From positions 1 to 64,000 of the IMG/VR virus record IMGVR_UViG_3300035670_000059: 64,000 bases of DNA; one strand, 5' to 3'. The position numbers and the translations under genes were made by a program. The notes below the pieces were generated by a model. That model did no database searches. It was not told the DNA's origin and saw only the letters and a list, made by a program, of their open reading frames with translations. Numbering within the stretch: position 1 is the first letter of the stretch; each line of letters begins with the position of its first letter. Source of the DNA: a virus. Shown here piece after piece: positions 6,073 to 55,536 of the stretch.

Positions 6073-6774
6073 ATGATAAAAAAACGAAATAAAAAAAGTA
6101 AGAATTATTTTACCCAAGAAACCGAAGATTATATTGTATTATATAATAATTCAAAGGATTTTGAGGAAAGAAGTAGGATATATGAGAGACATATCCACTA
6201 CGCCTTTTTTAAATTAACTCAAAACATAATTCATACTTTTAAATTTTATCATACCGAAGTAGAGGAATTAGAACACCTACAACATGAAATAATCACTTTT
6301 CTTTTATCTAAAATTCATTTATTTGATCCATCCAGAGGAGCTAAAGCATATTCTTATTTTGGAACTATAGTCAAAAGATGGCTTATATTATATAATACCA
6401 AAAATTATAATAAAAAAGTAAATAAAACGGAAATTGGCGAATTAGACAAAGAAGGTACTACACATTTTTATACTTTAGAAGATAATTCTAAAAACGAACT
6501 AGATAAGTATTTAGATTTATATGTTGAACATTGCACTAAAAATATATTTGAATTATTTCCTAAAAAGAATGATGCCCAAGTAGCAGATGCAATACTTGAA
6601 ATTTTTAGAAACAGAGAAAATTTAGAGATTTTTAATAAAAAAGCTCTTTACATTTACATCAGAGAAATAATAGATGTAAAAACTCCTAAAATAACTAAAA
6701 TATCTAATCAATTATACGATATTTTTAAAACCAATTATGTTTTTTATCTTGAAAACGGATACGCTAAATTTTAA
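6073..6774 (+). CDS. 55: Late sigma factor, T4 gp55-like
   Basis: The strongest match is the block FDPSRGAKAYSYFGTIVKRWL (residues 84-104), the region-2-like core of T4 gp55 relatives that binds RNA polymerase and melts the late -10 element. Upstream EELEHLQHEIITFLLSKI fits the same fold. At 233 residues it is slightly longer than T4 gp55 (185). Like gp55 it lacks a sigma region 4, in keeping with a late motif that has no -33 element. It probably directs transcription from the ATATTTATAAY sites found before 16 genes. Confidence 0.8.
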   Translation: MIKKRNKKSKNYFTQETEDYIVLYNNSKDFEERSRIYERHIHYAFFKLTQNIIHTFKFYHTEVEELEHLQHEIITFLLSKIHLFDPSRGAKAYSYFGTIVKRWLILYNTKNYNKKVNKTEIGELDKEGTTHFYTLEDNSKNELDKYLDLYVEHCTKNIFELFPKKNDAQVADAILEIFRNRENLEIFNKKALYIYIREIIDVKTPKITKISNQLYDIFKTNYVFYLENGYAKF

Positions 6775-6807: not shown

Positions 6808-7152
6808 ATGGGATCTTTAGATAACGTAGTATTTGGTAAAAAGAAATTTTCGGATATTTTAAGTGAAATATACGATAACCAAAAACGCAAAGAAAAACAA
6901 ATATCAGGATTAATTGCTGAATTAAAACCTCTTATTAGTGATATAGGAGATGCTACCTTAATTGTCCCACTCATTAAAGAATATTTAGAAATTGGCGTTA
7001 AAAACGACGAACAATTAATTAAAATGGCCACTATCATACAGCGTGCGATGAATAATAGCAGTGGTGAAGAATCGCTGGGGATTACCGAAGAGGAAAAACA
7101 ACAATTAATGGAAGAATTAGAAAAAATTAATTCTGATAAGGATAAAAAATGA
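6808..7152 (+). CDS. Hypothetical tail/baseplate-cluster protein (114 aa)
   Basis: A soluble, mostly helical protein with a lysine-rich N-terminus (FGKKKFSDILSEIYDNQKRKEK) and an acidic C-terminus. It is first in the baseplate cluster and its stop overlaps the start of the gp5-like gene by 4 bp (ATGA), so the two are translationally coupled. The close coupling suggests a partner or chaperone of the hub protein. I do not recognise the family. Confidence 0.65.
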   Translation: MGSLDNVVFGKKKFSDILSEIYDNQKRKEKQISGLIAELKPLISDIGDATLIVPLIKEYLEIGVKNDEQLIKMATIIQRAMNNSSGEESLGITEEEKQQLMEELEKINSDKDKK

Positions 7153-25661: not shown

Positions 25662-25672
25662 ATATTTATAAT
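25662..25672 (+). promoter_or_regulatory. Late-promoter motif ATATTTATAAT, only 3 nt from the start codon
   Basis: The motif ends at 25672 and the ATG is at 25676, so a transcript from it would be leaderless or nearly so. Confidence 0.6.
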
Positions 25673-25675
25673 AAA

Positions 25676-26005
25676 ATGCCTTCATTACACACTGATTTTA
25701 TATTAGCATTTGTAACCGGTTCAAATGTAACTTGCTCTTTTTCAAGTTCATATACTTTATATGAAACTCAATATAAATGTACTATTGGAGCAGATGAATA
25801 TAACTATTCTAACAACCCAAGTATAATTTCAGGCAGTGAAGGACAATTGTACAATTTTGCAACCGGTTCTTTTTTTGCACCTTATGTTACAACTGTTGGG
25901 TTATATGATGGATCTTATAATTTGTTAGCAGTAGCTAAACTAGCTAAACCACTTCCCACTTCCCGTACTACAGATACTACTATATTAATAAATTTCGATA
26001 AATAA
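25676..26005 (+). CDS. Short paralog of a tail-protein C-terminal domain (109 aa)
   Basis: The segment YNYSNNPSIISGSEGQL ... TTVGLYDGSYNLLAVAKLAKPLP aligns by eye with the end of the 339-aa protein at 21770 (FNYSTNPSFISGSTGEV; TTVGLYNDANELLAVAKLSRPL). The first 35 residues are different. It looks like a freestanding duplicate of that domain. A role as an alternative or competing subunit in the tail is possible. Confidence 0.7.
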   Translation: MPSLHTDFILAFVTGSNVTCSFSSSYTLYETQYKCTIGADEYNYSNNPSIISGSEGQLYNFATGSFFAPYVTTVGLYDGSYNLLAVAKLAKPLPTSRTTDTTILINFDK

Positions 26006-39198: not shown

Positions 39199-40497
39199 AT
39201 GAAAGAACAGAAAATTTTAGTAATTGGAGCAGGAGTAGCAGGAATTAATGCCGCAACTAAATTAGTAGACAACGGATATCCTGGAGAATTAATTAATATA
39301 ATCGATAAAGGTAGTGACCCATATAATCGCCAACCTGAAGAAGTAATGTGTGGTTTTGCAGGTGCGGGCGCGTGGAGTGACGGCAAACTAACCTATCATA
39401 CCGCTATTGGAGGACAATTATCCAAATATTGTGGAGAGGATAAAGCAATGGAATTGATGGATCAAGTAATCGCTAACTTTAGACGTTTCCACCCTAAACC
39501 CGAAGAAATTTTTTGTTCGGATCCACAAGAGGAACCCGAGTTTATTAAACCATATTTTGGCTTAAGAATGTTCCCTGTATGGCACATTGGCTCTAATTTC
39601 CTACATGAAATCGCTAAAGCGTGGTATCAATATTTAGTTGGTAAAGGCGTTAGATTTGAATGGGAAACTCAAGTTGAAGATATTGACTTTAACAATAACA
39701 GAGTTTATACCCACAATGCTGATCTAAAGTATGATACACTTATATTTGCGGTAGGTAAATCTGGTATTGATTTTGCTCAAGAATTAGCCCAACAATATAA
39801 TCTACCAGATGAGCCTAAACCAGTACAAATTGGTGTTCGATTTGAAGCACCACAGAAACACTTTCAAAAGCTAATTGATGTATCTTACGATTTTAAATTG
39901 TATCGTAAGTTTGAGGACACAGGTATTTCGCTTCGCTCATTCTGCACAAATAATAACGCTGCTTACGTAGCAGTAGAGGAAACATACGGAAATGTGAGCT
40001 ACAATGGCCACGCTAAGAAGGGCGAGGAATTCCGCAACGACATGACCAATTTTGGTATCTTGATGGAAATTCCAGGTATTGAAGATCCATTTGAATGGTC
40101 TAGAAATTTAGTATCTAATGTAAACACTAGTGGAACTGGTTTATACTATTCTCCTTCTAGACGTCCATCTTTAACCTCTGAAGGCGAAACAGTATCTGCA
40201 GTTGCCTTTAGTTCTAGAGAATTAGAAAATATTATTAAACCAGCATTTAAAGGATATTTTAAATATATTGAAGATTTTATTGAAGATATGAAGAAAGTGT
40301 TCCCAACACTTGAAAACGACTATGGAATATATGTACCGGAAGTCAAATATCTTAGTCCAGAAGTAAAAGTAGACTATTCAAATTTATCTCTTATAAATTA
40401 CCCTAACGTCCATTTTGCTGGAGATGCTCTATCTGCAAGAGGTATAACTGTAGCGGGAAGTCAAGGTATTTATATAGCTGAAAGTCTTTTAAAATAA
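39199..40497 (+). CDS. FAD-dependent oxidoreductase, COG2509-like (432 aa)
   Basis: The Rossmann motif VIGAGVAGINAA (residues 8-19) binds FAD. GAGAWSDGKLTYHT matches the SDGKL signature of COG2509-type flavoproteins, and the C-terminal FAGDALSARGITVAGSQGIYIAESL supplies the second FAD-contact motif. I chose ATG 39199, which aligns with the truncated copy upstream, over a TTG at 39172. The reaction of this family is not settled. It is an unusual, probably accessory metabolic gene in a T4-like phage. Confidence 0.8.
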   Translation: MKEQKILVIGAGVAGINAATKLVDNGYPGELINIIDKGSDPYNRQPEEVMCGFAGAGAWSDGKLTYHTAIGGQLSKYCGEDKAMELMDQVIANFRRFHPKPEEIFCSDPQEEPEFIKPYFGLRMFPVWHIGSNFLHEIAKAWYQYLVGKGVRFEWETQVEDIDFNNNRVYTHNADLKYDTLIFAVGKSGIDFAQELAQQYNLPDEPKPVQIGVRFEAPQKHFQKLIDVSYDFKLYRKFEDTGISLRSFCTNNNAAYVAVEETYGNVSYNGHAKKGEEFRNDMTNFGILMEIPGIEDPFEWSRNLVSNVNTSGTGLYYSPSRRPSLTSEGETVSAVAFSSRELENIIKPAFKGYFKYIEDFIEDMKKVFPTLENDYGIYVPEVKYLSPEVKVDYSNLSLINYPNVHFAGDALSARGITVAGSQGIYIAESLLK

Positions 40498-40514
40498 ATC
40501 GACTTTAATGTCTG

Positions 40515-40550
40515 GGACGCATATTTATAATAAAATAATAATATGCGTCC
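40515..40550 (+). promoter_or_regulatory. 10-bp inverted repeat enclosing a late promoter and covering a start codon
   Basis: GGACGCATAT (40515-40524) and ATATGCGTCC (40541-40550) are perfect reverse complements with a 16-nt spacer. The 3' arm contains the ATG of the GIY-YIG gene (40543), and the late-promoter motif (40521-40531) overlaps the 5' arm and spacer. Confidence 0.75.
40521..40531 (+). promoter_or_regulatory. Late-promoter motif ATATTTATAAT
   Basis: Ends 11 nt before the GIY-YIG start; it lies within the inverted repeat described at 40515-40550. Confidence 0.65.
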
Positions 40551-41190
40551 TTACATTTATTTGGTTAAAAATCAACAAAATAAAATAGTTTATATTGGTC
40601 AACAAATTGGAACTAAATCCTTAAATGAATACAAAGGTTCTGGTTTACTGTTAAATAGAGCCTACAACAAATATGGTGAAAATTATTTCAAACGAGAAAT
40701 CATTGAATATTGTAATGTGGATGAATTAAATGATAAAGAAAAATTATACATAAAACAATATAATACAAAATTTCCACATGGATATAATTTAACCGAGGGT
40801 GGTGATGGAATGAAGGGATACACATATAACAATAATCAAAAACAAAATATATCTAATGCTAAAAATGGGCAAAAATATCCTAAAGAACATGGCGAAAAAA
40901 TAAGACAAGCTAAATTAGGTAAAAAACGAGATCTCGAAACTATAAATAAAATAATTCAAACTAAAGCATCCAAACATAATATTAAAATAGATTTAACTTT
41001 AAAAAACCAATCTAGAAGCAATTCTCAAAAAACAATACTGCAATATGATCTCCAAAATAATCTATTAAACGAATACCAATCCGCTCAAGAAGCAGGTAGA
41101 TGCTTAGGAAAATCAGGAAATAGTATAGCAGATTGTGCCTCCGGAAGACAATCCACAGCTTATGGTTTTGTTTGGAAATACAGAGAATAG
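40543..41190 (+). CDS. GIY-YIG homing endonuclease with NUMOD-type DNA-binding tail (215 aa)
   Basis: The catalytic start YIYLVKNQQNKIVYIG (residues 4-19), YKGSGLLLNRAYNKYGE and GYNLTEGGDG are hallmarks of the I-TevI/Seg type. The C-terminal part has NUMOD3-like KHGEKIRQAKLGKK-type helices and a NUMOD1-like block (ILQYDLQNNLLNEYQSAQEAGR ... ADCASGRQSTAYGFVWKY). Its start codon sits in a hairpin arm with a late promoter inside, as in T4 I-TevI control. It lies between the flavoprotein and another host-promoter gene. Confidence 0.85.
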   Translation: MRPYIYLVKNQQNKIVYIGQQIGTKSLNEYKGSGLLLNRAYNKYGENYFKREIIEYCNVDELNDKEKLYIKQYNTKFPHGYNLTEGGDGMKGYTYNNNQKQNISNAKNGQKYPKEHGEKIRQAKLGKKRDLETINKIIQTKASKHNIKIDLTLKNQSRSNSQKTILQYDLQNNLLNEYQSAQEAGRCLGKSGNSIADCASGRQSTAYGFVWKYRE

Positions 41191-41203
41191 ATCGTATATT
41201 TAA
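41172..41203 (+). promoter_or_regulatory. Host-type promoter TTG-N20-TATATTTA
   Basis: TTG (41172-41174), exactly 20 nt, TATATTTA from 41195, 22 nt before the start at 41225. The -33 element lies inside the end of the endonuclease gene. Confidence 0.65.
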
Positions 41204-41224
41204 CATTGATAAAAATATTGAATT

Positions 41225-41488
41225 ATGAGCAATACTAAAAAACCAATCGTAGTTAAAAGACTAAAGAAAGCTGATGGTACCATCGCTCACATTAAAGATG
41301 GTAAATTGCATAACTGGGACGGCCCTGCTTTAATCCCACAAGGTGATAAAAAATTAGCCGAATACTACATTCATGGAATCCAGTACACCAAAGACCAATT
41401 TGAACAAGCTCATAGAGATCAAGAAGGTTTGCCGTGGTACAAAAACCCATCAATGAAATCTCAATTGGAAGACGGTTACCGTAACTAA
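41225..41488 (+). CDS. Conserved small phage protein (87 aa)
   Basis: The pattern KKADGTIAHIKDGKLHNWDGPALIPQGDKKLAEYYIHGIQYT resembles a short, widely distributed phage protein family of unknown function (also like MORN-related W-DGPA units). The C-terminus is polar (LPWYKNPSMKSQLEDGYRN). It is first in a unit with the nucleotidyltransferase and kinase under a host-type promoter, 4 bp ahead of the former. Confidence 0.7.
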   Translation: MSNTKKPIVVKRLKKADGTIAHIKDGKLHNWDGPALIPQGDKKLAEYYIHGIQYTKDQFEQAHRDQEGLPWYKNPSMKSQLEDGYRN

Positions 41489-54782: not shown

Positions 54783-54812
54783 TAAGCCCAATCCTTTGGA
54801 TTGGGCTTTTTT
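54783..54812 (+). terminator. Strong terminator after the HNH gene
   Basis: AGCCCAATCC (54785-54794), loop TTT, GGATTGGGCT (54798-54807), then a T-run to 54812. Confidence 0.9.
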
Positions 54813-54818
54813 ATTGTT

Positions 54819-54829
54819 ATATTTATAAC
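54819..54829 (+). promoter_or_regulatory. Late-promoter motif ATATTTATAAC
   Basis: Ends 20 nt before the PhoH-like gene and directly follows the terminator. Confidence 0.65.
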
Positions 54830-54849
54830 TGAATTTTAAAGTTATCTAT

Positions 54850-55536
54850 ATGACATCAAATCATCATTCGGACGACGTGTTCGTCCAAAAGCGTAAACCA
54901 AAGAATCCAATTAAGTTTAATGTAGTTTTAAATGCCGAACAAAAACAAGCCAAATCACTTATTTTAGAAAATCCCATTACTGTAATAAAAGGTATGGCTG
55001 GCTCTGGTAAAACGCTAGTTGCTGTCCAATGTGCTCTTGACATGTTTTTCAATAAACAGGTGGAAAAAATAGTCATATCACGGCCCACTGTATCCAAAGA
55101 AGATATCGGGTTTTTACCGGGCGATATACGTGAAAAAATGGATCCTTGGTTGGCCCCAATATACCACAATCTATATATGTTATACTCTAAAGAAAAAGTA
55201 GATAAACATTTAGAAAATGGAGATATTGAAATTGTACCATTTGCTTTTATGCGAGGTAGAACATTTGTAAACTCGTTCGTAATTGTAGATGAGGCCCAAA
55301 ACGTAACACATCCTCAAATGGAAACTGTTATAGGACGTTTAGGAAAAAATTCTAAAATGGTAATATGTGGCGATATAGCCCAAATAGATTTAAAGAATAA
55401 AAAAGAATCTGGATTTACCTTCCTATATAGATTGGAAGAAAATGTTAAAGGATTTAAAACAATTTCTCTAGAAACAAACCACAGACACGAAATAGTTGCC
55501 CCTATATTAGAGGTATACAAGCTTTTTAGGGACTAA
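54850..55536 (+). CDS. phoH: PhoH-like ATPase
   Basis: Walker A GMAGSGKT (residues 48-55), ISRPTVSKEDIGFLPGDIREKMDPW, Walker B VIVDEAQN (D147/E148) and the arginine-finger region LETNHRH are all diagnostic of PhoH proteins. The 228-residue length equals the ATPase core, without the KH domain of some cellular versions. Phage phoH is very common in aquatic T4-like phages; its function is unresolved (RNA-related ATPase or phosphate-linked role). Here it is under late-type control next to capsid and neck genes. Confidence 0.9.
   Translation: MTSNHHSDDVFVQKRKPKNPIKFNVVLNAEQKQAKSLILENPITVIKGMAGSGKTLVAVQCALDMFFNKQVEKIVISRPTVSKEDIGFLPGDIREKMDPWLAPIYHNLYMLYSKEKVDKHLENGDIEIVPFAFMRGRTFVNSFVIVDEAQNVTHPQMETVIGRLGKNSKMVICGDIAQIDLKNKKESGFTFLYRLEENVKGFKTISLETNHRHEIVAPILEVYKLFRD

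Follow-up and report, generated by a model that had tools for sequence, protein, structure and literature searches.

The record is a virus genome of 113,732 bases (113.7 kb), of which bases 1–64000 form the window, the whole stretch analysed here. By gene content the virus is a T4-like phage, with a T4-type terminase, portal (PHROG 213), major head protein (PHROG 138) and tail sheath (PHROG 23). Among isolates the closest is Flavobacterium phage immuto (Immutovirus), whose terminase is 63% identical, and a Flavobacterium-like host is therefore likely. No near-identical phage DNA was found in the GenBank phage collection, where a lower-identity blastn search returned only a 142-nt endonuclease match. 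The genes and elements discussed below are as follows.

6073–6774, plus strand: candidate late sigma factor, 233 aa, gp55-like by sequence inspection, with a Sigma70_r2 match.
39199–40497, plus strand: upstream FAD/pyridine-nucleotide oxidoreductase-like gene; its last ~260 nt are carrier-like.
40507–40511, plus strand: 5′ strand of an outer helix (partner 40553–40557), from the RNA fold and covariation.
40514–40525, plus strand: 5′ arm of the main stem (GGGACGCATATT), from the fold (z = −6.4), covariation and the loss of sequestration on upstream shuffling.
40522–40530, plus strand: late-type promoter core TATTTATAA (extended ATATTTATAATAAAATA, 40521–40537), from motif counts and position before structural genes.
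40540–40551, plus strand: 3′ arm of the main stem, comprising the last leader bases, the ATG and codons 2–3 of the endonuclease gene, from the RNA fold.
40543–41190, plus strand: free-standing homing endonuclease (HEG), 215 aa, with an I-TevI-like GIY-YIG domain and a C-terminal NUMOD1, from PHROG, Pfam-type domain and PDB matches.
40553–40557, plus strand: 3′ strand of the outer helix (partner 40507–40511), from the RNA fold and covariation.
41191–41488, plus strand: right flank and downstream gene (87 aa, 41225–41488), the right edge of the inserted cassette, 91–94% identical to HEG-less relatives.

The gene at 40543 had been described from the bare sequence as a GIY-YIG homing endonuclease, and database searches agree. 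Its product matches PHROG 314 (‘homing endonuclease’, E = 1.8e-34) as well as PHROG 7168 and 5123, carries the motif YIY...YIG and has a C-terminal NUMOD1 (E = 1.7e-6). Among solved structures, only the I-TevI catalytic domain (1ln0; E = 4e-4, residues 2–86) is a sensible relative. By homology the gene is a GIY-YIG homing endonuclease, with predicted site-specific cleavage. An intron-encoded enzyme was ruled out, as the window has no Rfam match and both neighbouring genes are complete.

In the HEG-less relatives L085–L094, the stop TAA is followed after a few bases by CGTATATTTAACATTG, within the interval between these two neighbours. In the window, 45 nt of new leader and the HEG stand at this point, ahead of the shared right flank, and the 5′ arm is missing from the HEG-less sites. 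These relatives, with neither leader nor gene, show that the 5′ arm, promoter and HEG arrived jointly. The upstream gene is mostly 86–97% identical to HEG-less relatives, but over its last ~260 nt (40240–40497) identity drops to 75–81% and then 64–67%, and the last block resembles HEG carriers (71–81%). With its departure from HEG-less relatives and, in the last block, its likeness to carriers, this tract bears the classical footprint of co-conversion. The same insertion site holds other GIY-YIG endonucleases in L015, L018, L084 and L123.

The preliminary description proposed that GGACGCATAT (40515–40524) and ATATGCGTCC (40541–40550) pair and so bury the ATG of any read-through transcript. The two segments are exact inverse complements over 10 bp, and in RNA the predicted stem grows to 12 bp (40514–40525/40540–40551) with one G-U among its pairs. 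The outer helix listed above and a second one (40497–40502/40561–40566), both weaker than the main stem, extend the structure to 40497–40566. In the long RNA the ATG (40543–40545) lies inside the predicted stem, as proposed, and the MFE is −22.8 kcal/mol where shuffles give −7.9 ± 2.3 (z = −6.4); in an RNA starting at 40540 it is predicted to be free of structure. Opening the start region would cost 17.5 kcal/mol, rank 1 among the 124 gene starts of the genome (median 3.8). An Rfam search of the window found no known RNA family, and an intrinsic terminator was ruled out by the missing U-run 3′ of the stem.

An AT-rich genome with an AT-rich promoter could yield start hairpins by chance, of which this would be the best of many. 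A/T pairing within the promoter does set a baseline of a few kcal/mol, and about half of the HEGs surveyed below give no signal. The arms here contain G/C, however, and when the 40 nt upstream of the promoter were shuffled 100 times none of the shuffles matched the observed opening value (0/100; z = 8.8). Only a handful of perfect 10-bp inverted repeats with a 3–20 nt spacer exist in the 113.7 kb, and among those listed this is the only one to contain the start codon of a called gene. Together with the compensatory changes and the gene-class enrichment described below, the arm composition and shuffling result make chance highly improbable.

The same early reading had placed a late motif over the 5′ arm and spacer, and this placement stands: TATTTATAA at 40522–40530 extends over the spacer and the final 3 nt of the 10-bp 5′ arm. 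Over the whole genome ATATTTATAA occurs 26 times on the plus strand and once on the minus strand, where ~1.1 per strand are expected. All 26 plus-strand copies lie outside called genes and 23 of them sit 13–41 nt before a start, the 45 nt preceding starts making up 4.7% of the genome. Genes downstream include portal, tail sheath and tail tube, and in immuto TATTTATA lies ahead of tail sheath, gp20, terminase, tape measure and others. Owing to this intergenic, pre-start placement before structural genes here and in immuto, we read the motif as a late-type promoter by association, as had been suggested.

Aligning TATTTATA with T4 TATAAATA, and presuming that the T4 geometry applies, gives a predicted start near 40535; with a TATAATAA alignment it would fall near 40539. 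The predicted loss of the 5′ arm is independent of the exact start, because any start assumed 9–17 nt past the core gives a short transcript that lacks the arm, as the preliminary description anticipated, and makes opening 18.0–18.3 kcal/mol easier.

A candidate reader of this promoter is encoded at 6073–6774. Sigma70_r2 is matched by 8 of 9 homologues (best E = 4.8e-4), and the assignment is based on this one match; the low-confidence structural model (pLDDT 68), for which the best Foldseek matches are mostly sigma factors with none significant, was set aside. No sequence match was found in PDB or PHROG. A homologue at 78130–78828 of immuto is annotated there only as hypothetical. It is possible that the 6073–6774 product reads the TATTTATAA promoter. 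Directly behind the sigma-like gene lies a short gene annotated without function (6808–7152), whose start tends to pair with its leader around the late promoter, likewise in L036, L030, L033, L046 and L052; it is a non-HEG candidate for the same hairpin control.

There is no Shine-Dalgarno sequence before the endonuclease ATG, as had been noted earlier. Genome-wide, SD-like 4-mers precede 8 of 124 gene starts, a lower rate than at random positions (11.4%), and the leaders are rich in A; by this sequence measure the phage avoids Shine-Dalgarno sites. Since such sites are absent or rare at starts, the predicted stem hides the AUG and first codons instead of an SD site. Late leaders are very short throughout the genome, with a core-to-ATG distance down to 13 nt (window 25663–25676), a spacing so short that some late messages may be leaderless.

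We propose, with good confidence, that the hairpin is a cis-acting RNA time-lock on HEG translation, in which we infer the start site, the read-through and the ribosome block. In early or middle read-through RNA from upstream, the leader would fold onto the first HEG codons, leaving the AUG in a 12-bp stem and untranslated. Late in infection, the promoter core inside the hairpin would start transcripts at ~40535–40539. These would lack the 5′ arm, leaving the AUG unpaired with a very short A/U-rich leader ahead of it, and translation would start there with no Shine-Dalgarno site. The computed support for the time-lock consists of the structure and its conservation, the promoter motif, the joint transfer of the cassette and the enrichment across HEGs as a class; the silent read-through RNA and the translated late RNA are what we infer from it.

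The hairpin could also be real and merely tune one constitutive transcript, as a 5′ stabiliser or mild attenuator, with the early/late switch absent. Read-through is a prediction and presumes an early or middle promoter upstream, which would leave room for such tuning. Yet the core lies inside the stem-loop, so the promoter's own transcripts cannot carry the 5′ arm; the upstream gene is co-directional with the HEG and 45 nt away in a one-directional region; and the hairpin has neither an Rfam match nor a terminator U-run after the stem. We consider pure tuning unlikely.

Conservation of the stem, on which the time-lock reading also draws, was assessed in L009–L014, whose endonucleases are 74–85% identical. 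The stem is kept in five relatives with distinct leaders. Of the cells formed by 21 pairs in 6 distinct sequences, 96% are paired; sliding the partner lowers this to 33–53%. Two pairs are doubly compensated: 40517/40548 is A-U or G-C, its 3′ side falling on the third position of an Arg codon, where the change is synonymous, and 40519/40546 changes from G-C to A-U in L013, which turns codon 2 from Arg to Tyr. Within the few independent changes that six distinct sequences offer, the stem is supported as kept by compensatory change. HNH relatives (L284–L287, L290–L295) were left out of the covariation as too distant or as having no late core in the leader shown (in L284 the core is very near the ATG). 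The distant homologue in L015 (42% amino acid identity) has a different yet strong stem. In L013 the endonuclease start recurs as a second, partial copy at the contig end (3735–3849); it has the promoter but not the G-rich 5′ arm, and might represent a further insertion or an error of assembly.

The inverted repeat might alternatively be a DNA site, bound over the late promoter by the endonuclease or another dimeric protein that represses transcription, like the I-TevI operator in T4. T4 intron endonucleases have been proposed to autorepress through promoter-overlapping operators, as shown for I-TevI (PMC2988022), and a perfect 10-bp repeat does bracket the promoter core here. The I-TevI operator is, however, described as homing-site-like, not palindromic (PMC2988022). 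T-G at 40520/40545 and G-T at 40514/40551, each in 6 of 7 sequences, break DNA symmetry; G-U being tolerated in RNA, these wobbles fit an RNA stem and not a DNA palindrome. Arms are unrelated between HEGs, yet the architecture is the same. The plus strand is also more stable than the minus strand in 15 of 16 HEG hairpins, by a median of 6.3 kcal/mol (for the remaining late genes it is the less stable one, by 1.8), a supporting but not decisive result, as the 16 leaders were picked for plus-strand pairing, which favours it. A DNA site is, in our judgement, distinctly unlikely, and we retain the RNA time-lock.

Leader/start pairing was then compared across HEGs. A search for TATTTATA[A/T] 15–35 nt before an ATG in the loci examined gave 310 contexts, including 23 HEGs; the HEG label denotes homology clusters with GIY-YIG or HNH endonucleases, several confirmed by Pfam and PHROG and the rest assigned from HNH-like sequence or cluster membership. 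The long-minus-short opening energy in the first set (n = 154) had a median of 7.6 for HEGs and 1.55 for the others (p = 6e-7). The median excess over shuffles of the 40 nt upstream of the promoter was +2.2 kcal/mol for HEGs and −0.4 for the others (p = 1e-6); non-HEG genes were given fewer shuffles. Some of the sampled loci (L009–L015) were chosen for their homology to the window HEG; a test with one value per subfamily (11 HEG, 119 other), which guards against the resulting bias, gave p = 5e-4. Of the 310 late-promoter starts the window HEG ranks first, with the greatest excess of pairing, and for 11 of the 23 HEGs at most 5 of 100 shuffles were as strong. Since about half of the clade's HEGs are without significant pairing (for example L016, L023, L043, L077 and L123), the predicted hairpin lock is common but not obligatory among them. 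The held-out set (L164–L243) contains one clear HEG (L212) and is thus mainly a null set; L212 ranks 4 of 156 in long-minus-short opening energy, with 3 of 100 shuffles as high. Non-HEG late genes can score well too (PhoH at window 54850, window 42483 and L033). At the PhoH-like gene (window 54784–54850) there is a perfect 10-bp inverted repeat upstream, with pairing around the late core that 0 of 15 shuffles equalled.

HEGs with pairing belong to both GIY-YIG and HNH families and occupy many insertion sites, sharing the architecture with unrelated arm sequences. HNH genes of the same genome at record 90180 (5/100 shuffles as strong) and 109459 (0/100) have leader/start pairing too. The promoter element recurs, 96% identical over 26 nt, before the HNH gene at record 90157–90182. 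This gene (record 90157–90857, L007:6157–6857) lies behind a DNA polymerase gene and has the 26-nt promoter-plus-start block as in the GIY-YIG gene. That HNH and GIY-YIG genes have the same 26 nt suggests that mobile genes have the block itself in common. The late core is missing from a GIY-YIG gene behind the ribonucleotide reductase gene (record 98522); in place of the promoter, record 98455–98522 (L003:1159–1226) has a terminator-like hairpin, CCCCACC ttcg GGTGGGG, followed by a T-run. We give an even chance to the broader proposal that, in this Flavobacterium-type clade of T4-like phages, HEGs of several families and insertion sites repeatedly built start-codon hairpins around TATTTATAA, independently of T4 and without SD, and that the hairpin-plus-promoter is a portable timing module moving with the endonuclease.

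If true, selfish endonucleases would tend toward late-only expression by one RNA trick even far from T4, and the trick would work with another promoter sequence and another mode of translation start. The locus would offer a clean test of how ribosomes choose a start codon without Shine-Dalgarno, with one stem, known compensatory variants and a predicted switch in AUG accessibility. The HEG-wide statistic would extend a few T4 cases to a broader testable rule.

The preliminary description compared the locus to T4 I-TevI with a different promoter sequence, and the comparison is apt (PMC2988022, PMC3014915). The same logic is known for T4 I-TevI, II and III, segB, Aeh1 mobE and genes e, soc and 49 (PMC2988022, PMC3014915), and its presumed benefit in T4 is that the endonuclease is held back before late times (PMC2988022). 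The published definition of the class allows the ‘Shine-Dalgarno and/or AUG’ in the stem (PMC3014915). Our prediction likewise has a stem over the translation start and a late promoter that removes the 5′ arm; SD sequestration is absent and TATTTATAA stands in place of the T4 late promoter TATAAATA.

Among known systems, the T4 intron endonucleases are alike in being homing endonucleases with an RNA stem (predicted here) that blocks early/middle read-through translation and an internal promoter that removes the 5′ arm, and I-TevI is also the closest solved relative of the catalytic domain. Theirs, however, are intron-borne, with a sequestered SD and T4 promoters (PMC2988022), whereas the window HEG is free-standing, without an SD, and has its AUG and codons 2–3 in the predicted stem. 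Aeromonas phage Aeh1 mobE and T4 segB are, like it, free-standing HEGs between phage genes with a hairpin and late promoter (PMC2988022), but they differ in gammaproteobacterial hosts, SD sequestration, endonuclease and insertion site. The T4 late genes e, soc and 49 likewise form, in early transcripts, a stem that takes in the SD and/or AUG, gene e with its late promoter in the 5′ strand of the stem (PMC3014915), although these are not mobile elements. Immuto shares TATTTATA before structural genes and the homologue of the candidate sigma factor; unlike in the window, no TATTTATA core lies directly ahead of the HNH (61351) and T5orf172 (75429) genes annotated in it, and no hairpin lock was found at either. 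A search of open-access papers found no report of such a lock outside SD-using T4 relatives, which is not proof of absence. The hairpin/late-promoter logic is thus known; what appears to be new, from sequence analysis, is its occurrence with a different promoter and no SD, with the AUG itself buried, at a free-standing HEG in a Flavobacterium-type clade.
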